From: a virus
DNA: 34,738 nt
Virus record (IMG/VR): IMGVR_UViG_3300032304_000220
Span: 1 to 34,738 of that record
Direction: 5' to 3' (one strand)
Of this stretch, positions 3,984-34,699 are shown piece by piece. Position 1 is the first letter of the stretch, and the number at the start of each line of letters is the position of its first letter. The notes under the pieces were generated by a model. That model was not told the DNA's origin. It saw only the letters and a list, made by a program, of their open reading frames with translations, and searched no databases. Position numbers and translations under genes: made by a program.

Positions 3984-4319
3984 ATGGCTGATGTTGATTT
4001 TATATTAAAACCGCTGGGGGACAAGATAGTTGTTCGCCCGGATAAACGCATTTTAAGCACCACTATTATTGTTGAAAACAAAGAAGTGGATAACATGGGC
4101 ACGGTAGTAGCCGTAGGCCCAGGCAAAAAGATTAAAGGCCGCCGGGAAGCAATGCCGGTAGAGGTAGGCCAACACGTCAGATTCGGCACGATGGGCAAAG
4201 ATGCCAATGCCGAATACTTAAAATATCAAGAATACTTTACTAACGATGAACGTTATCTGATAATGTCATGGCAAGATGTATGTTTTATAACTGACGGAGA
4301 ACAAGTAAATGGCAACTAA
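3984..4319 (+). CDS. groES: GroES-like co-chaperonin
   Basis: GroES forms a heptameric lid on the GroEL chaperonin. Phage versions replace the host lid so that large capsid proteins can fold. The 111 residues show the family pattern: LKPLGDKIVVRP near the N-terminus (residues 8-19), the mobile-loop region with the hydrophobic run STTIIVE (25-31) that would dock on GroEL, GTVVAVGPGKK (39-49) and PVEVGQHVRFG (58-68). The C-terminus ERYLIMSWQDVCFI is the usual GroES ending. It is slightly longer than bacterial GroES (about 96) owing to a C-terminal tail. The ribosome site CGGAGAA precedes the ATG. No GroEL gene is seen, so it must work with host GroEL, plausibly on the coat at 10099. Confidence 0.93.
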   Translation: MADVDFILKPLGDKIVVRPDKRILSTTIIVENKEVDNMGTVVAVGPGKKIKGRREAMPVEVGQHVRFGTMGKDANAEYLKYQEYFTNDERYLIMSWQDVCFITDGEQVNGN

Positions 4320-9044: not shown

Positions 9045-9073
9045 TTGCAAAACACTAGATATAGTATTAAGAT
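9045..9073 (+). promoter_or_regulatory. Candidate promoter for scaffold and coat
   Basis: TTGCAA (9045-9050) and TAAGAT (9068-9073) are separated by exactly 17 nt in the 85-nt gap after the portal. The -10 hexamer is identical to the one at the early promoter near 31872. The spacer contains a short ACTA-GATA-TAGT dyad. A weak 6-bp hairpin (CCTATG/CATAGG, about 9090-9108) follows. It would give extra messages for the two most abundant head proteins. Confidence 0.5.
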
Positions 9074-9129
9074 TACTTAACAACACTACCTATGGTGTAT
9101 TCATAGGGTTAATTCTTGGGATCATAACC

Positions 9130-27090: not shown

Positions 27091-27307
27091 GAATAACGTG
27101 CCAGGGTTTGTAACCGCTTGCGTAACTGTTACTTTATGCGTTGTAGTTATTGGCATGGTAGGCACAATGACTGTTGGTATGTTTGATGCAGACGTTAGTA
27201 ATGACAAAATATTTGAAGCCATTACCCCAGCATTTCAAACCATTATTGGTGGTTTTATTGGTTTAATTACTGGAATTAAAATAGGACAAGATAGTAAAGA
27301 TGATTGA
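27080..27307 (+). CDS. Small two-TM protein, possible second holin or antiholin
   Basis: The 75 residues have two membrane segments, VTACVTVTLCVVVIGMVGTM (about 11-30) and PAFQTIIGGFIGLITGIKIG (about 50-69), joined by an acidic loop (DADVSNDK). It overlaps the holin by 11 nt and the endolysin by 8 nt, so it is translated in the lysis chain. Holin/antiholin pairs are often built this way; which partner does which cannot be read from the sequence. Confidence 0.65.
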   Translation: MINKNNVPGFVTACVTVTLCVVVIGMVGTMTVGMFDADVSNDKIFEAITPAFQTIIGGFIGLITGIKIGQDSKDD

Positions 27308-27899
27308 ATCCCAATTATTATCCCTTGGAATAGATGGCAAATGGCTTGAGCCATTACTAGAAACGTTTGATAAATACCAAATCAACACCCCTAAACGCCA
27401 GGCGTGTTTTATTGGGCAGACCATGCATGAAAGCGGAAAGTTTAAATTTACTAAAGAAAATTTGAACTATTCAGCTAAAGCATTAATGGCAACCTGGCCA
27501 AGCCGGTTTCCTGATCTTGATACTGCAATGCAATATGAACGCCAGCCGGAAAAAATAGCCAATAAAGTTTATAGCGGCCGCATGGGAAACACCGAAGATG
27601 GCGATGGCGCAAAATACATTGGCCGTGGTTTAATCCAAGTAACCGGTAAAGAGAACTATACGCATTGTGGTGAAGCTTTAGGCATTGACTTGGTAGCTAA
27701 CCCCCAACTATTGGAAGAACCCCGCTACGCCGCTTTATCGGCCGGCTGGTTTTGGAACAAAAAAGGGTTAAATGCCCTGGCTGATGAAGGCACTAAAGAT
27801 TCTTTTGAAGTAATGACTAAACGTATTAATGGTGGATTGCTGGGGCTTGATGACCGGAAATCTAAAATGATTGAAGTTCTTAAAGCACTAGGGGCATAA
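27300..27899 (+). CDS. Endolysin, glycoside hydrolase family 19
   Basis: This 199-residue enzyme degrades the peptidoglycan glycan strand at lysis. GH19 features are QTMHESGKF with the catalytic E44, KVYSGRMGNTEDGDG (E99 the likely partner), KYIGRGLIQVTGKENY (105-120), and the C-terminal INGG pattern (IN--LLGLDDR). No signal peptide or separate binding domain is present, so it would need the holin genes just upstream. A 50-residue gene follows 1 nt after its stop. Confidence 0.92.
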   Translation: MIESQLLSLGIDGKWLEPLLETFDKYQINTPKRQACFIGQTMHESGKFKFTKENLNYSAKALMATWPSRFPDLDTAMQYERQPEKIANKVYSGRMGNTEDGDGAKYIGRGLIQVTGKENYTHCGEALGIDLVANPQLLEEPRYAALSAGWFWNKKGLNALADEGTKDSFEVMTKRINGGLLGLDDRKSKMIEVLKALGA

Positions 27900-28265: not shown

Positions 28266-28715
28266 CTAGTATCTATGTTTAGGCATACAAGTTACTTCTA
28301 CCGGAATGTCAGCGGTAAAACCGTTGATTTGGCGTTTAGTAGTAATTACATGGGCACGTAGGCCAGCACCTTCACATTCAGTAACCCCATTAATAACTTC
28401 ATTCCTGGTTAATGCGGCTACTTGTTTATCCAATACTAACTGTTGGGAAGGGGCTTGGCTATACACGGTGCCGGAAGTGCTACTACAACCCGTTAAAAAC
28501 AACAATGCCAGGACAAATCCAACAAACATGGCACCAATTAATACGTCACTAGCTATTTTTTTGTATTTACGAATACGGGCACGTTTAGCTTCTTCTATAA
28601 GAAATTTGTTATAGGCTTCATGATCGCCCCAGCCCTTATCAACCATGCGTTGTAGTTTTTCTTGCTTGGCCTGGTAAGCCCAATAGGCTTCTGCTTGTTG
28701 TTCTTCACGATTCAT
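28266..28715 (-). CDS. Membrane protein with an internal lipobox (LTGC) after a TM helix
   Basis: This 149-residue protein has a charged N-terminal 55 residues, a membrane segment (ASDVLIGAMFVGFVLALLFL, 55-74) and then LTGC (74-77) followed by a Ser/Gln-rich linker. That is the sequence of a lipoprotein signal, but displaced 50 residues from the N-terminus, which is unusual. The C-terminal domain has two further cysteines (in TECEGAG and VTCMP) and would be periplasmic. The ATG at 28715 follows AAAGGA. Its message starts at the 28758-28786 promoter with a 5' hairpin. Function unknown; superinfection exclusion is one idea for an early membrane protein. Confidence 0.65.
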   Translation of the reverse strand: MNREEQQAEAYWAYQAKQEKLQRMVDKGWGDHEAYNKFLIEEAKRARIRKYKKIASDVLIGAMFVGFVLALLFLTGCSSTSGTVYSQAPSQQLVLDKQVAALTRNEVINGVTECEGAGLRAHVITTKRQINGFTADIPVEVTCMPKHRY

Positions 28716-28734: not shown

Positions 28735-28750
28735 ACCGCAACATTGCGGT
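28735..28750 (-). promoter_or_regulatory. 5' leader hairpin, copy 1
   Basis: On the minus strand ACCGCAATGTTGCGGT gives a 6-bp stem with an AUGU loop. It begins 7 nt after the -10 box, so at the expected transcript start, and ends exactly 19 nt before the ATG. Copy 2 (31110-31125) has the same position, loop and spacing. The third base pair is C-G here and G-C there. Confidence 0.75.
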
Positions 28751-28757
28751 ATTTGTT

Positions 28758-28786
28758 AATTTACTAAAGTTTTCTTTAGTTGTAAA
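28758..28786 (-). promoter_or_regulatory. Leftward promoter with operator dyad in the spacer
   Basis: On the minus strand TTTACA (28786-28781) and TAAATT (28763-28758) are 17 nt apart. The spacer and first base of the -10 hold the dyad ACTAAAG-AAAA-CTTTAGT. The 20 bases 28763-28782 are the exact reverse complement of those at the rightward early promoter (31853-31872). A half-site CAACTAAA lies just upstream near 28799. It drives the lipobox gene and the 67-residue gene. Confidence 0.75.
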
Positions 28787-28849
28787 GCGCAATTGTGCAA
28801 CTAAACAACGTTAGGCGTGAATTTGGCAAACTGATACTAATTGGGTGGA

Positions 28850-28893
28850 AACTGGAAAAAACCCCAAATTGTTGCATCCTTCAACGTCCAGTT
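28850..28893. other. Inverted repeat in the gap between leftward genes
   Basis: AACTGGA (28850-28856) and TCCAGTT (28887-28893) can pair across 30 nt, with a small inner GTTG/CAAC hairpin. On the minus strand the loop contains GGGGTTTTTT. It may end or slow the message from 28907-29035 before the 28758 promoter, but it is not a standard terminator. Confidence 0.4.
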
Positions 28894-28906
28894 AACCGCC
28901 CATAAT

Positions 28907-29035
28907 TTATCTACAAATAGTTACCCATTGGCAACCACCGCCGCCGCAGACATACTGTTGCCAGCAATTAGCTTGTTGAGCAATTACGATACCTACTACA
29001 AAAAATGCCGCAAATCCTGCAAGTGCTTTTTTCAT
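28907..29035 (-). CDS. 42-residue exported peptide with two CxxxxxC arms joined by Gly4
   Basis: A strong ribosome site (AAAGGA, 7 nt) precedes the ATG at 29035. The peptide starts MKKALAGFAAFFVVGIVIAQ, a typical signal sequence, and the remainder holds C24, C30, C35 and C41: two C-x5-C arms around GGGG. Both arms contain Trp and Gln (CWQQYVC and CQWVTIC). Cleavage near QQA-N would leave a 19-residue peptide with two possible disulfides in the periplasm. I know no family for it. It follows the exonuclease by 10 nt in the leftward operon. The leader shares AAATAAAGGAAT with the other leftward leader genes. Confidence 0.65.
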   Translation of the reverse strand: MKKALAGFAAFFVVGIVIAQQANCWQQYVCGGGGCQWVTICR

Positions 29036-29045
29036 GATTATTCCT

Positions 29046-29834
29046 TTATTTGTGATTGTTTTTTAACTGCCAAAATTCCAACAACTTAGTAAACATAAGC
29101 CAGTAACGATCTAGGTCATCCGGTTCATGTTCCACTACTTTTACCCCAGTAAACTGGGTAACGCCGTTGACCATTTTGTAGCCAACAAACACATTAGCGC
29201 AACGGGCTTTAGGCATATTAAAACCCTGGCGGTAGGCCGCTAATTGCATACCGTGTTCCGGCCAAATATCGGCCTTGGAAATATCTTCCGTTTCTTTAGT
29301 CTTAATGTCAATTGCAACACCATCAAAATCATGCCTAGATTTAGCTATTAAATCGGCCTTACCGCCGTATCCAAGCTTATGGGCAAAGGATAGTTCCGGC
29401 AACAGTAAAAGCGGCCCAAAATGCGCTTTAATGGCTTCTTCAATTGGCCGGCACATTGGCATAGCTTCCGGTATCAACGCACCTTCAAAAAACGCCTGGA
29501 TTGTTGCGTGGATAGCGGTACCGCGGTCAGCGGCAATGCGGCCAGTCGCTTTTGAATCTTGCATTACACGGGATAGCCAATCTGATTCCGGTTCGTCCGG
29601 TTTCCTGGGCAGGGTTAAAGCGGCTAAAAGGACGTTTTGTTGTTTCCATGTATCAAGGCCTGGACGTGCCGCAACCGCAATGATTCCTGAAACGCTAGGG
29701 CAAAGGTCAAGTGATCTTGCATCCCGTAACGTTGCTGGCCGTTGTTGGCCGTTTTTGCCGATAACTGTATATGCTGGGTTTCCTTCACGATCATACCAAT
29801 GCCCACTTTCCGATTGACGTTCTTTAATTATCAT
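29046..29834 (-). CDS. PD-(D/E)XK exonuclease, RecB/Cas4-like
   Basis: This 262-residue nuclease probably makes single-stranded tails for phage recombination or degrades host DNA. The RecB-type order is complete: RGTAIHATIQAFFEG with H109, PELSF with E147, GYGGKADLIAK with D161, VAIDIKTK with D176 and K178, and MQLAAYRQG with Q197 and Y201. There is no helicase part and no cysteine cluster of the Cas4 Fe-S type. Its ATGA overlaps the preceding gene's stop by 4 nt. The SSB in the same operon would cover the strands it creates. Confidence 0.85.
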   Translation of the reverse strand: MIIKERQSESGHWYDREGNPAYTVIGKNGQQRPATLRDARSLDLCPSVSGIIAVAARPGLDTWKQQNVLLAALTLPRKPDEPESDWLSRVMQDSKATGRIAADRGTAIHATIQAFFEGALIPEAMPMCRPIEEAIKAHFGPLLLLPELSFAHKLGYGGKADLIAKSRHDFDGVAIDIKTKETEDISKADIWPEHGMQLAAYRQGFNMPKARCANVFVGYKMVNGVTQFTGVKVVEHEPDDLDRYWLMFTKLLEFWQLKNNHK

Positions 29835-30025
29835 TGTTTTGGTTTTCTTCCACGTTTTGGTGCTTCAACAAAATCTACTTGGACTGGCGTAATTACAACA
29901 ACCTTGTTTTCATATTCACCGCACCAATCATGATGGCTTTTGTTTGCGGTTTGCGGAAAACGTTTACATACACCGTATGTGTCATTGGTTTGACCGGCAT
30001 ACCATTTACAGTCAATGCATTTCAT
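29831..30025 (-). CDS. Small four-cysteine protein, probably metal binding
   Basis: These 64 residues carry C3, C6, C20 and C35 in the pattern CIDCKWY, GVCKRFPQ and DWCGEYE. I recall this arrangement in short phage proteins of unknown role; a zinc site is likely and an Fe-S site possible. The second half has a strand (NKVVVITPVQVDFVE) and ends in the basic KRGRKPKQ. It overlaps the exonuclease by 4 nt and starts directly after the upstream stop, so these genes are tightly coupled. Confidence 0.7.
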   Translation of the reverse strand: MKCIDCKWYAGQTNDTYGVCKRFPQTANKSHHDWCGEYENKVVVITPVQVDFVEAPKRGRKPKQ

Positions 30026-30229
30026 TTATTCACCTAATGTTTGTAGGATTAATTTTCTATCTTTTGGGTCCTTAACCAAGCAAGCCGCTTCAGTAACTAA
30101 AGCCCTGGTGAACTTGGATAAAGCTTCATAGCTGAAACCAATGATTTCAGTTTCTTCATCATGCCCAATATCTTGATGTGTTTTCAAGGTGTAGTGATCA
30201 CAAACAATAAACTTAACCATTGGTTTCAT
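30026..30229 (-). CDS. Hypothetical protein, 67 residues
   Basis: I do not recognise it. The sequence KFIVCDHYTLKTHQDIGHDEETEIIGFSYEALSKF suggests a small alpha/beta fold, with a Lys/Asp-rich end. A strong site (AGGGGG, 5 nt before the ATG) fixes the start at 30229; the Met at codon 4 lacks one. It sits between the SSB and the four-Cys protein without gaps over 8 nt, so a role in the same DNA-handling operon is likely. Confidence 0.6.
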   Translation of the reverse strand: MKPMVKFIVCDHYTLKTHQDIGHDEETEIIGFSYEALSKFTRALVTEAACLVKDPKDRKLILQTLGE

Positions 30230-30237
30230 AGTGCCCC

Positions 30238-30879
30238 CTAGAAAGGAATATCGTCATCAATCAATTCTGACGGTGCAGAAGTGACTGCTGGCGCATTAGG
30301 TTCAAACGTGTTGCGGTATTCGGCAGACTTCTTGATAACGCCTTGCATACCTTCTGAAAGCTTGTTGAACTTATCTTGATCAAACGGATCAAGGGTAAAA
30401 ATCATTAGTTCGTTAACGCCTTTAGGTTCGCCAAGCTTTTTCAATGCGGCCGGCACCTGGCTAATGTTGGCAATGTTTGCGTATTCTTTTCCATCGTATG
30501 TGGAATGAGTAACGTTGACCATGCAACACTTACCCAGCAAGACTTCTAGGTTAAAGCCGTCCAGTTCTTCCTGGGTAAAAGCTTTACCGCGCCAGGCTTC
30601 TAAATCCTTACGTAACGTGGCCTTTTCGTCCAGGGATAACGTATAGCGTTTAGATACAATTAGCGGTTTACCTTCTGCGGTTTGCAAGGCATTGCCATCG
30701 TTATCTTCACCATGTAATTCAAACATCGCAATGATTTTGCGTTGCATTTTGCGTTTACCCATCCATTCGGTAGTTTGCGTACCGATGTCAATGATGCGGT
30801 AAAGACGGGCCACAAAGCTACCAGCCGGTGGCAATTTAAAATCAGACGTAGAGTTGCTACTTTGTTTTGCAATAATCAT
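30238..30879 (-). CDS. Phage single-stranded DNA-binding protein
   Basis: This 213-residue protein begins with a conserved strand region (FKLPPAGSFVARLYRIIDIG, then QRKIIAMFELHG) that resembles phage SSB/DUF669-type OB-fold proteins. It ends in IDDDIPF, the acidic tip with final Pro-Phe by which bacterial SSBs recruit partner proteins. That tip is strong support. The ATG at 30879 lies 1 nt after the upstream TAA, with GGAAAA at good distance; frames from 30891 or 30915 are possible but overlap the upstream gene. Partner candidates are the exonuclease and RusA. Confidence 0.8.
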   Translation of the reverse strand: MIIAKQSSNSTSDFKLPPAGSFVARLYRIIDIGTQTTEWMGKRKMQRKIIAMFELHGEDNDGNALQTAEGKPLIVSKRYTLSLDEKATLRKDLEAWRGKAFTQEELDGFNLEVLLGKCCMVNVTHSTYDGKEYANIANISQVPAALKKLGEPKGVNELMIFTLDPFDQDKFNKLSEGMQGVIKKSAEYRNTFEPNAPAVTSAPSELIDDDIPF

Positions 30880-30880
30880 T

Positions 30881-31090
30881 TTATTTTCCATTTCCAAAAA
30901 TATTTCCAAAATCATTGATCACGTCACGTAACAATGGGTTAACGTGACTATTTCGTGGTTTGCCACAAGCTTGACGTATGCAGTCAACTTGTTCCTGGCT
31001 CAAAAACTCATTACTAAATTCCATGTCATCTAAAGCTTTTTCCAGGAATTCTTCATGTTCTAACATCAACTGGTTTAATTCTGCACTCAT
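30881..31090 (-). CDS. Acidic helical protein, first gene of the leftward operon
   Basis: These 69 residues begin with an acidic helix (MSAELNQLMLEHEEFLEKAL) and contain one CIRQACGK segment. I do not recognise a family. The ATG at 31090 has an AAGGAA site, and the leader up to the promoter at 31133-31161 includes the hairpin copy 2. As first gene under the operator beside the repressor, it should be among the earliest products. A role as an anti-repressor or other regulator is speculation from position. Confidence 0.6.
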   Translation of the reverse strand: MSAELNQLMLEHEEFLEKALDDMEFSNEFLSQEQVDCIRQACGKPRNSHVNPLLRDVINDFGNIFGNGK

Positions 31091-31109
31091 GTTTATTTCC
31101 TTATTTATC

Positions 31110-31125
31110 ACGGCAACATTGCCGT
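31110..31125 (-). promoter_or_regulatory. 5' leader hairpin, copy 2
   Basis: On the minus strand ACGGCAATGTTGCCGT forms a 6-bp stem with loop AUGU. It begins 7 nt after the -10 box and ends 19 nt before the ATG at 31090, exactly as copy 1. The third pair is exchanged relative to copy 1 while the rest is unchanged, which supports pairing in RNA. The following leader, GATAAATAAGGAAATAAAC, is also close to copy 1. Confidence 0.75.
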
Positions 31126-31147
31126 ACTTACAAATGTAAAGTAAAAT
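31119..31147 (+). promoter_or_regulatory. Rightward promoter of the repressor gene
   Basis: TTGCCG (31119-31124) and TAAAAT (31142-31147) lie 17 nt apart. The -10 falls within the operator-like dyad of the opposite promoter, so binding there would block both. The start would be near 31154, 35 nt before the repressor ATG. Confidence 0.55.
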
Positions 31148-31161
31148 TTAGTTGTTGTAAA
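31133..31161 (-). promoter_or_regulatory. Leftward promoter of the SSB/exonuclease operon with diverged operator
   Basis: On the minus strand TTTACA (31161-31156) and TACATT (31138-31133) are 17 nt apart. Within lies ACTAAA-TTTT-ACTTTA, the same arms as the 20-bp operator elsewhere but with changes in the middle. It overlaps the rightward repressor promoter, the arrangement of a lambda-type switch region. Confidence 0.7.
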
Positions 31162-31188
31162 GAAATATTTAGCAAAAAAGGAAAATAA

Positions 31189-31419
31189 ATGACAGATGCA
31201 CAACTAATCGACCTACTGGGCCGGCCAGCAAAGGTGGCAAAGCTATGTGGCGTAACGGTCCAGGCGGTGTGTCAATGGCGCAACAACAATGCAATTCCAG
31301 CCGCACCGTTGATGCTTATCGCGGCAACAATAGAAAAAGAATCAGCCGGCCTTGTTACCAGGAAAGACCTTTTTCCACAGACTTGGCAATTAATTTGGCC
31401 GGAGTTAAGCACGGTTTAG
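31189..31419 (+). CDS. Cro/YdaS-like repressor
   Basis: This 76-residue DNA-binding protein is the only clear regulator. Residues 13-33 (PAKVAKLCGVTVQAVCQWRN) form a helix-turn-helix with the Cro/YdaS spacing, and AIPAAPLMLIAATIEKESAG to DLFPQTWQLIWPEL is the family's usual second half. There is no peptidase (LexA/CI) domain, so it would not be cleaved in an SOS response. AAAAGGAAAA precedes the ATG. It lies next to divergent promoters that share a symmetrical motif, so it is the likely ligand of the ACTAAAG dyads; this is inference. Confidence 0.85.
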   Translation: MTDAQLIDLLGRPAKVAKLCGVTVQAVCQWRNNNAIPAAPLMLIAATIEKESAGLVTRKDLFPQTWQLIWPELSTV

Positions 31420-31433
31420 TTTTATGATATAGT
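31405..31433 (+). promoter_or_regulatory. Candidate extended -10 promoter before the structured stretch
   Basis: TGATATAGT (31425-31433) fits an extended -10 (TGnTATAAT) with one mismatch. A weak -35, TTAAGC (31405-31410), is at 17 nt. The start would be near 31440, just before the long hairpin. Confidence 0.4.
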
Positions 31434-31439
31434 TACCGT

Positions 31440-31565
31440 ATTGAGGAATTGAACACTCGATACCGTAGGGCTTTAGAGGTAGTTTTGTGGGTTTAGGAAA
31501 TAAGATAAGAGGTATTTTCTAAGCCGTTCAATCACAGAATTACCCCTAAAGCCCTTTTTCTTTTT
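31440..31565 (+). ncRNA. Candidate small RNA: long bulged hairpin with T-tract
   Basis: Segment 31467-31489 pairs with 31533-31555: 23 positions with one A-C mismatch and two G-U pairs. Inside, 31490-31502 pairs with 31513-31525 over 13 positions with two G-U pairs and a 10-nt loop. Between the two stems on the 3' side is a 7-nt bulge, GTTCAAT (31526-31532), exactly complementary to ATTGAAC (31448-31454) just upstream, so a pseudoknot is possible. The outer stem is followed by TTTTTCTTTTT. It could be an independent RNA or a very long terminator of the repressor message. No coding frame with a ribosome site is seen here. Confidence 0.6.
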
Positions 31566-31848
31566 GCACCGTTCAATCGGACTTCCCCCGATAGCAATGC
31601 GGTTAGATCGCCGGCTGGAAAGAATAGATTGGCCTACCAGCACCCGGTATGCGCCACGTAGGCTTAAATGGGCACTACACAAGTTTTAAGGGCCAACGGT
31701 GATAGACAACCCTTTAAACGATTGAACATTAACTTAGGTAGCATTAGTTCAAGTAAAGCAATACCTTCTTGAATGGATGTGGGCTTATCACCCTTGGGGA
31801 ACCTATGACTAAAAAACAACACTAGGGAAAGTACCTATAAAAATATAT
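31566..31848 (+). other. Second half of the gene-free stretch: nested complementary segments (structured RNA or origin)
   Basis: GTTCAATCG (31571-31579) pairs with CGATTGAAC (31719-31727). Within this, GGCCTAC (31631-31637) can pair with GTAGGCT (31658-31664), and GTTTTAAGGG (31683-31692) with CCCTTTAAAC (31710-31719, one mismatch). The loop of the last hairpin holds GGTGATA (31698-31704), complementary to TATCACC (31786-31792), a possible pseudoknot. The stretch has no convincing gene; a minus-strand open frame begins with TTG and lacks a ribosome site. Together with 31440-31565 it fills the only gap over 300 bases. A replication origin is the main alternative. Confidence 0.5.
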
Positions 31849-31877
31849 TTGACAACTAAAGAAAACTTTAGTAAGAT
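31849..31877 (+). promoter_or_regulatory. Rightward early promoter with operator dyad in the spacer
   Basis: A perfect TTGACA (31849-31854) and TAAGAT (31872-31877) are 17 nt apart. Between them is ACTAAAG-AAAA-CTTTAG(T), a perfect 7-bp dyad counting the first base of the -10. The 20 bases 31853-31872 are the reverse complement of 28763-28782. This is the best promoter in the window. It should start the early operon 31920-34699 and perhaps run on through rusA and beyond. Confidence 0.85.
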
Positions 31878-31919
31878 ATATATACGGTCAAGTGATCGTG
31901 ATTAGAAAAGGAAAACAAA

Positions 31920-32126
31920 ATGTACGAAAAAGCCCTAAAAGAATTTGCCAAACTATCTACCGTTAACCGGGATGATCTTGACGGCACCATTGCCCACCTA
32001 GTGTTCCGTGCCCAGCACGAACTGGACCTAGAAGATGAAGGCGAAAACGAATACATAGAATTTGAATTGCCTAAAGGCGAATACGCCAGGCTTACCAAAT
32101 TTGTAGCTAAATGGACGGGTAAATAA
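31920..32126 (+). CDS. Acidic early protein, 68 residues
   Basis: I do not recognise this first product of the early operon. It is acidic (ELDLEDEGENEYIEFELPKGEY) between two helices and ends KFVAKWTGK. The AAAAGGAAAA site before the ATG is strong. Small acidic early proteins often act on host enzymes or nucleoid proteins, but nothing in the sequence shows a target. Confidence 0.65.
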   Translation: MYEKALKEFAKLSTVNRDDLDGTIAHLVFRAQHELDLEDEGENEYIEFELPKGEYARLTKFVAKWTGK

Positions 32127-32128
32127 TC

Positions 32129-32518
32129 ATGGCATATATGAGCAAAGAAAACGCCGCATTGATCCGCAACGCCCTTAAAACGGCGTTTCCAAACATCAAG
32201 TTTGCGGTACGTAAAGACACCCATTCAATCTATGTAACCATTGTTTCTAGCGACATTGATTTCAGTATGCTTGACACCTTGGCAACCTGGAACCATAAGG
32301 GCTACGCCCAAATTAATGAATATCACCTTGAATTTTATGGCCAGCACCAAGAATTGTTTGCCAAGATTATTGGCATTATTAAAACTGCCCCGGCCGACAA
32401 ATGGTATGACCGTTCCGATTCAATGACGGATTATTTTGATACTGCTTTTTACATTCATTTAAACGTGGGCGCATGGGACAAACCATACGTTTACATTGAA
32501 AACAAACAGGCCGCATGA
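32129..32518 (+). CDS. LPD29-like protein
   Basis: The 129-residue product begins YMSKENAALIRNALKTAFPNIKFAVR, which fits the start of the 'large polyvalent protein-associated domain 29' as I recall it (SKE-A-LIR-ALK-AFP-VKF-VR). The middle and end (LATWNHKGYAQINEYHLEFY, DTAFYIHLNVG) are alpha/beta. In polyvalent proteins such domains are fused to effectors or replication enzymes. Here it stands alone, 2 nt after the previous gene and overlapping the next by 4 nt. Function unknown. Confidence 0.6.
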   Translation: MAYMSKENAALIRNALKTAFPNIKFAVRKDTHSIYVTIVSSDIDFSMLDTLATWNHKGYAQINEYHLEFYGQHQELFAKIIGIIKTAPADKWYDRSDSMTDYFDTAFYIHLNVGAWDKPYVYIENKQAA

Positions 32519-32892
32519 TGTTTGAAATCTTTTGGAAACATTACCCTAGGAAGGTAGCTAAACGTGCCGCCCTGGGGGCGTTTAACCGGCTTACAAAGGA
32601 CGAACAGGCCCAGGCCGTAGAAGCCATTGAAGATCACGTGGCGTACTGGAAACTAAAGGGTACCGAAATGGATTACATACCCCATGCCAGCACGTGGATC
32701 AACCAAGGCCGGTTTGAAGATGAATTGGATATGACCCCAAAAGAAGTAAAGCGGCCTTCATTACCTTGGTATAGTAATGATGAATTAACTTTGGCCAAGG
32801 GCCGGGAACTAGGGTTAAACGCATATGCCGGGGAATCAATGGGGCAGTACCGACAACGAATCAGCCAAGCAATTGGAAAGGCATCGGTATGA
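32515..32892 (+). CDS. Replication-associated protein with YPRKV and STWIN motifs (helicase-loader-like)
   Basis: The 125 residues hold FEIFWKHYPRKVAKRAALGAFNRL (3-26) and YIPHASTWINQGRFEDEL (54-71). This pair is known to me from the C-terminal parts of phage replication proteins such as lambda-O/DnaT-type initiators and helicase loaders. Here it forms almost the whole protein, without a DNA-binding N-terminal domain. It is the only recognisable replication-initiation candidate in the genome. The start is 32515 or 32518 (two ATGs in a row); 32515 overlaps the previous stop. Confidence 0.65.
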   Translation: MMFEIFWKHYPRKVAKRAALGAFNRLTKDEQAQAVEAIEDHVAYWKLKGTEMDYIPHASTWINQGRFEDELDMTPKEVKRPSLPWYSNDELTLAKGRELGLNAYAGESMGQYRQRISQAIGKASV

Positions 32893-34419: not shown

Positions 34420-34699
34420 ACAGGACAAATTACATTATGCGAAGCTGGCAAGATTGGGGTGCATATTGTGCCAACAAAACGGAATCCTTGATACCGATAC
34501 ACCCGTGGAAATCCATCATATTCGCAGACATGGCCAACCACGAAAAACTGCTAAAACTATACCCTTGTGTATGTGGCACCATCGCCTTGGAAATACCAGC
34601 GTTCATTCCCTTGGCCACCGGGGCTTTCAAAAATACTGGGGCTGGAGTGAAGAAGATTTACTCGAAAAAACAGAAGAAATGCTAAATGACAATAATTAA
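34412..34699 (+). CDS. HNH nuclease, similar to phage P1 Ref
   Basis: P1 Ref is a RecA-dependent nuclease that cuts in D-loops. These 95 residues show the core of that family: CILC (C17, C20), VEIHHIRRHG (H35, H36), TIPLCMWHHRLG (C53, H56, H57), VHSLGHRGFQKYWG. The pair of HH motifs and the cysteines give the HNH/zinc scaffold. It ends inside the terminal repeat and overlaps rusA by 14 nt on the joined molecule, so the two act in sequence on recombination intermediates. Confidence 0.85.
   Translation: MTKQDKLHYAKLARLGCILCQQNGILDTDTPVEIHHIRRHGQPRKTAKTIPLCMWHHRLGNTSVHSLGHRGFQKYWGWSEEDLLEKTEEMLNDNN

Follow-up and report, generated by a model that had tools for sequence, protein, structure and literature searches.

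A probable shared operator dyad and a Cro/YdaS-type repressor gene among the early promoters of a P22-like podophage

Candidate operators and promoters of the early control region

The stretch of DNA analysed here (the window) is the IMG/VR virus record IMGVR_UViG_3300032304_000220 at its full length of 34,738 nucleotides (nt). It is a complete genome of 34.7 kb with a 123-bp direct terminal repeat, and its structural genes are P22-like according to profile matches (portal phrog_156, coat phrog_283, scaffold and head closure Hc3). The late genes are read rightward as far as an endolysin gene (27300-27899), and the early genes diverge outward from about 31.1 kb. The subject of this work is the early control region of this podophage genome, in which a small Cro/YdaS-type repressor gene (cro) is accompanied by a palindromic sequence placed within the early promoters.

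The sequence ACTAAAGTTTTCTTTAGTTG lies at 28763-28782 on the plus strand and its exact reverse complement at 31853-31872, where the initial annotation, made from the letters alone, had placed them; no further match was found in the whole window with up to three mismatches (0.01 expected from shuffles). The dyad ACTAAAG-N4-CTTTAGT is present in exactly two copies in the 34.7-kb genome, each filling a promoter spacer of 17 nt, and the −35 and −10 hexamers originally assigned to them (TTTACA/TAAATT leftward, TTGACA/TAAGAT rightward) were likewise recovered. Two weaker dyads, 21 bp apart, are found between cro and the leftward genes. Here a single diverged site had been described, in the leftward promoter and overlapping that of cro; the sites are in fact two, and the earlier inventory had overlooked, besides this second cro-side operator, two structured RNAs between cro and the rightward promoter. 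The candidate control elements are as follows.

28758-28786, minus strand: distal leftward promoter PL2 (−35 TTTACA at 28786-28781, −10 TAAATT at 28763-28758)
28763-28780: PL2 operator, filling the PL2 spacer
31119-31147, plus strand: likely cro promoter Pcro (TTGCCG-17-TAAAAT)
31133-31161, minus strand: conserved leftward promoter PL1 (−35 TTTACA at 31161-31156, −10 TACATT at 31138-31133)
31135-31152: operator Ocro1, TGTAAAGTAAAATTTAGT, within the PL1 spacer and covering the cro −10
31156-31173: operator Ocro2, TGTAAAGAAATATTTAGC, covering the PL1 −35 and situated immediately downstream of the cro −10
31189-31419, plus strand: Cro/YdaS-type repressor of 76 residues, recognition helix VTVQAVCQWRNN
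31849-31877, plus strand: rightward promoter PR (TTGACA at 31849-31854, TAAGAT at 31872-31877)
31855-31872: PR operator, within the PR spacer

The total number of promoter-like sites in a scan of the window is not above chance, and the promoters listed therefore rely on conservation and not on the scan. Moreover, the possibility that the dyad is a hairpin or terminator transcribed from its own promoter was rejected, because it lies upstream of the expected start. A dyad-like sequence in the portal gene, GCTAAAGAAAACTTTAGG (7410), reads as the codons of AKENFR and was attributed to coding constraint instead of being counted as an operator.

Conservation of the dyad and its match to the Cro helix

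About 80 relatives were gathered through the Cro protein, most of them metagenomic fragments, and the presence of the dyad was counted at up to two mismatches in the contigs reaching far enough. The PR dyad was found in 59 of 59 contigs and the PL2 dyad in 46 of 47, against 1.1% and 2.8%, respectively, in shuffles of the same stretches; the PL2 count is slightly generous, as a few matches lie at an unexpected place or are without good promoter hexamers. Ocro1 and Ocro2 are both conserved in nearly all relatives, with their 21-bp spacing. Absence of the dyad from the corresponding promoters of related phages had been named at the outset as a result that would speak against its role; it is present there. 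In the relatives most arm positions of the dyad hold 1.3-2 bits. In the PR dyad, information over the 14 positions of the arms ranges from 1.06 to 2.0 bits, with 1.65 or more at most of them, whereas each of the four bases of the centre reaches about 1 bit and is nearly always A or T. This is the pattern expected of a palindrome read by a protein, with a flexible centre that is not read.

The transcripts expected from PL1, PL2 and PR share a further feature, a short hairpin a few nt past the expected start, followed by a ribosome site. The stem letters change in compensating ways among relatives, and these hairpins may protect the 5' ends.

28735-28750, minus strand: 5'-terminal hairpin of the PL2 transcript, ACCGCAAUGUUGCGGU (z −3.1)
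31111-31126: hairpin of the PL1 transcript
31884-31899, plus strand: 5'-terminal hairpin of the PR transcript, weak alone and compensated in relatives

The layout of operator, promoter, hairpin and ribosome site, common to all three early transcripts, together with the letter-for-letter identity of the two copies in the window, might indicate a recently copied promoter cassette kept by recombination, in which the identical 20-mers would not be operators at all. However, the PL2 and PR dyads of the relatives differ in the centre and in the flanks while the arms stay constant; in one relative (L006) the centres differ within a single genome, so the identity in the window is not merely that of a copied promoter. 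Since, furthermore, other Cro groups carry a different dyad at the same places, a copied cassette appears very improbable.

Additional dyads were observed in some relatives. Tandem PR-type operator promoters, with inserted sequence between them, occur in L026 (+697 and +1246 from cro) and L039 (+698 and +1311), and an extra rightward operator-like dyad after TTTACA is present in L005 (+5039 from cro) and L009 (+5088).

The 76-residue protein belongs to the YdaS/P22-Cro-like family, with 33.2 bits for PF15943 (curated cut-off 30), a match to phrog_35 (E 1e-15) and 29.8 bits for PF14549, just under the cut-off of that family. It matches YdaS of CP-933P (8co2/8c7k) with an E of 3e-4 over the C-terminal motif, and its predicted model (pLDDT, predicted local distance difference test, 90.7) is a Cro-like helix-turn-helix (HTH) with a C-terminal tryptophan motif like that of CP-933P YdaS. 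The fold comparison (8co2 over 69 residues at 32% identity with a Z of only 4.3, N15 Cro 5.3, P22 Cro 5.1) gives modest values that establish the fold class only.

Stronger evidence for a link between protein and dyad comes from other Cro groups, reached through the neighbouring RNA or through a distant Cro. Cro proteins with the helices SPAAVSQW, SPPAVSQW, VPAVSMW and TLAAVSQW are accompanied at the same promoters by the operator RTTAAG-N4-CTTAAY. Relative to the start of cro, its copies lie at about −1900 to −2900, at −50 to −100, in many cases at −14, and at +650 to +990. Among the Cro variants with the right region present, those with the helix VQAVCQW have only the CTAAAG type in 36 of 37 cases (the remaining one has both types), and those with other helices only the TTAAG type in 26 of 30, giving a table of 36:0 and 1:26. 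At the level of whole genomes, all 11 of the genomes in the Cro group of the window contain ACTAAAG-N4-CTTTAGT, against none of eight from the other groups. In one variant (L368) the cysteine is kept, SPA replaces TVQ or SVQ, and the operator is of the TTAAG type, which hints that the third base of the half-site depends on the first helix residues and not on C28. Because the operator type follows the type of the recognition helix, Cro is very probably the ligand of the dyad; a host factor would not change its site along with the phage Cro, and a role of the dyad as a host-regulator site was rejected on this ground.

Two observations concern the operator of the other groups. In L352, L366, L380 and L408 it shares sequence with the cro −10 (TTAAGAT) and stops at the ATG; the mRNA of cro may therefore lack a leader. 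The window itself also contains a perfect copy of this other type, ATTAAGATTACTTAAC, at 9066-9081 in the interval between the portal gene and the scaffold gene, and four relatives have it too.

The predicted early circuit

No match to PF00589, PF00239, PF00717 or PF13614 was obtained in 19 genome-sized records including the window, and no integrase, resolvase, S24 repressor, ParA or other maintenance system of a lambdoid immunity region was found in them. HTH_3 (PF01381) has no match in the genome of the window and only below-cut-off matches in six genomes of the other groups; some of these matches, at least, fall on Cro. The gene divergent from cro, where a CI-type repressor would be sought, gave no HTH match in profile searches. 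The initial description of a phage without an integrase is thus strongly supported. A compact switch had also been described: one operator serving early promoters leftward and rightward, with a Cro-like autoregulator in the middle, finds strong support in the relatives, but the term switch does not hold, since a second repressor was not found.

Given that neither a CI-like partner nor an integrase was found, the arrangement points to an early shut-off and not to a bistable choice. We consider it highly probable, on the comparative evidence given above, that the shared dyad serves a negative feedback with a single repressor. In the unrepressed state, the host sigma-70 polymerase would initiate at Pcro and at three further promoters: PL1 for the recombination genes, PR for the replication genes, and PL2 for a short leftward operon located at the lysis end. 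A dimer of the 76-residue Cro/YdaS protein would occupy the 18-bp dyad. Since every dyad either fills the interval from −35 to −10 or covers an element of a promoter, the bound protein would exclude polymerase. Judging from site quality, the strong symmetric sites at PL2 and PR would be filled first and the weaker PL1/Pcro sites later, so that accumulating Cro would shut early transcription in both directions and finally cap its own level. The simplest reading is that this phage line has retained the Cro half of the circuit alone.

An unrecognised second repressor, of phage or host origin, would give the same dyads another owner, with Cro sharing or competing for them as Cro and CI do in lambda. 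Lambda-like circuits have operators common to two repressors, the PaaR2 repressor of CP-933P shows no sequence similarity to CI (PMC8630535), and many early open reading frames of the window are unannotated. The lack of S24 and HTH_3 matches in the window's own genome and the tracking of the operator type with the Cro helix nevertheless make this alternative unlikely.

Other points also weigh against an early shut-off by Cro alone. Ocro1 and Ocro2 are imperfect dyads; the match between helix and operator amounts to about one clade split, through shared ancestry, and its Fisher p of 1e-16 should therefore not be taken literally. In a third Cro group (helix VSPHAVSMW) neither operator type was seen, and a de novo search for N4 dyads there returned none that was convincing. 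Many early genes lack a family match and the family-library scans covered less than the full protein set of the window, so an additional DNA-binding protein of unknown family could exist. Binding and repression by Cro, the order in which the sites fill and the timing of the shut-off are inferred.

The early genes that would be served by these promoters are the following.

28266-28715, minus strand: opening gene of the PL2 transcript, without a family match
29046-29834, minus strand: exonuclease of the PD-(D/E)XK type, leftward early operon (phrog_298, E 4e-16; PF12705)
30238-30915, minus strand: recombination-type protein of 225 residues, leftward early operon (phrog_862, E 1.5e-26)
31920-32892, plus strand: start of the rightward early operon (phrog_10415, phrog_270)
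32515-32892, plus strand: replication-initiation-like protein of the rightward early operon (operon matches phrog_10415 and phrog_270)

By position, the counterpart of the 225-residue protein in MW202674 appears to be annotated as Erf superfamily. On the late side, a GroES-like phage co-chaperonin gene (3984-4319) lies just upstream of the packaging genes, as in phage PBR31. A terminase search retrieved Nitrosospira and Nitrosovibrio chromosomes at 54-59% identity, a few of which have a weakly related Cro; two strict patterns gave no confirmed match to the Cro in cellular genomes. These terminase relatives in Nitrosospira, together with the RNA family RF02932 in the phage relatives, suggest betaproteobacterial hosts, and the kind of relatives and their collections point to a probable lake origin of the phage group.

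Cro is normally studied as one half of a lysis-lysogeny switch, and here it is found without a recognisable CI or integrase; no description of a virulent phage with Cro only was found in a literature search. The role of Cro alone thus becomes testable in a broad phage group with dispersed single operators. Furthermore, the natural series of helices with their operators would provide a specificity code for repressors of the YdaS/P22-Cro family, which are still labelled as toxins in Pfam.

Structured RNAs and comparison with known systems

Between cro and PR the window holds two structured RNAs and a likely promoter for the first.

31425-31433, plus strand: extended −10 TGATATAGT, likely small-RNA promoter, at the end of cro by its stop codon
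31440-31559, plus strand: likely small RNA of about 120 nt, with 5' hairpin, loop pseudoknot and intrinsic terminator
31573-31808, plus strand: type A structured RNA of 236 nt, no Rfam match

In the relatives, the extended −10 is present wherever the small RNA is present and absent where it is absent. The fold of the small RNA is much more stable than those of shuffles (z −6.2 to −7.5), with 97% of the pair cells paired and 145 double changes against 36 in shuffled controls. Its pseudoknot, a 7-bp pairing of the first loop with a bulge, shows double changes in five of seven pairs, and its terminator doubles as that of cro.

The type A RNA matches MW202674 at 74% over 153 nt, where the Cro proteins are 41% identical, and a pattern search retrieved it in 81 viral stretches. 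Its minimum-energy fold is no better than those of shuffles, so the structure is supported by covariation: a structure built by hand, which includes a pseudoknot, is 98% paired across 36 sequences. Double changes number 242, as compared with 81 in shuffled controls, and pairing falls to 37-47% when the structure is slid. In most relatives of the window the slot is filled instead by the Betaproteobacteria-1 RNA (RF02932; type B), as in L003, L008, L040, L048 and others (76-93 bits in 16 of 16 tested); in the window, the stretch 31400-31900 does not reach the gathering threshold of this family. The RNA type is independent of Cro similarity: L003, with a Cro identical to that of the window, has type B, and L044 (84%) has type A. 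Among 76 copies examined, 50 (about two thirds) lie downstream of a Cro homologue and the rest follow other early genes, some of them with a different small HTH-like protein upstream. A SAM-II hit at 34499 in the Rfam scan of the window (25 bits, cut-off 44) was taken as chance.

That types A and B replace each other at one location suggests related functions, which might concern early transcription or replication. A more tentative proposal, to which we give a little less than even weight, is that of a two-layered control in which the Cro operators are combined with a small RNA having its own promoter and with an exchangeable structured RNA, type A being a new RNA class, interchangeable with the Betaproteobacteria-1 RNA, in many freshwater phages. 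This would place in phage early control an orphan RNA, for which a literature search found no description, together with the covariation-supported RNA that replaces it.

The Cro proteins of P22 and lambda are small HTH dimers that lower early transcription leftward, rightward and from their own gene. In lambda and P22 the operators form clusters common to Cro and CI/C2, whereas in the window single dyads lie in separate promoters. YdaS of CP-933P, from Escherichia coli O157:H7 (PDB 8co2, 8c7k), is a homologous HTH protein sharing the C-terminal WxLIWPE motif with the window's Cro. By gel shift, footprint and reporters, it binds 18-bp palindromes at PRM and PR, regulates PL and represses its own promoter (PMC8630535). 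CP-933P differs in having the CI-like PaaR2 and the CII-like YdaT, and in its half-site, GTTTAGTAA; the window yielded no CI or CII partner, and its PR is situated on the downstream side of cro.

Among phages, Xanthomonas phage PBR31 (MT119766) resembles the window in its P22-like portal (47% identity), the SSB on the left arm and the order GroES-terminase-portal-scaffold-coat. Unlike the window, this temperate cousin keeps an integrase, an excisionase and a c repressor; the window, for its part, has a short PL2 operon beside the lysis genes. The cultured Rhodoferax phage P26218 was considered as a model (portal 43% identical), but its early region is different and it is not a close match. In the relatives of type B, the known RNA RF02932 lies between cro and PR, where the window has a type A RNA of other sequence. 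The podophage ctn9Y15 (MW202674) shares with the window the same layout, a portal that is 68% identical, the type A RNA and a Cro that is 41% identical; it differs in the half-site of its operator, ATTAAG, and its cro is left unannotated in the record.

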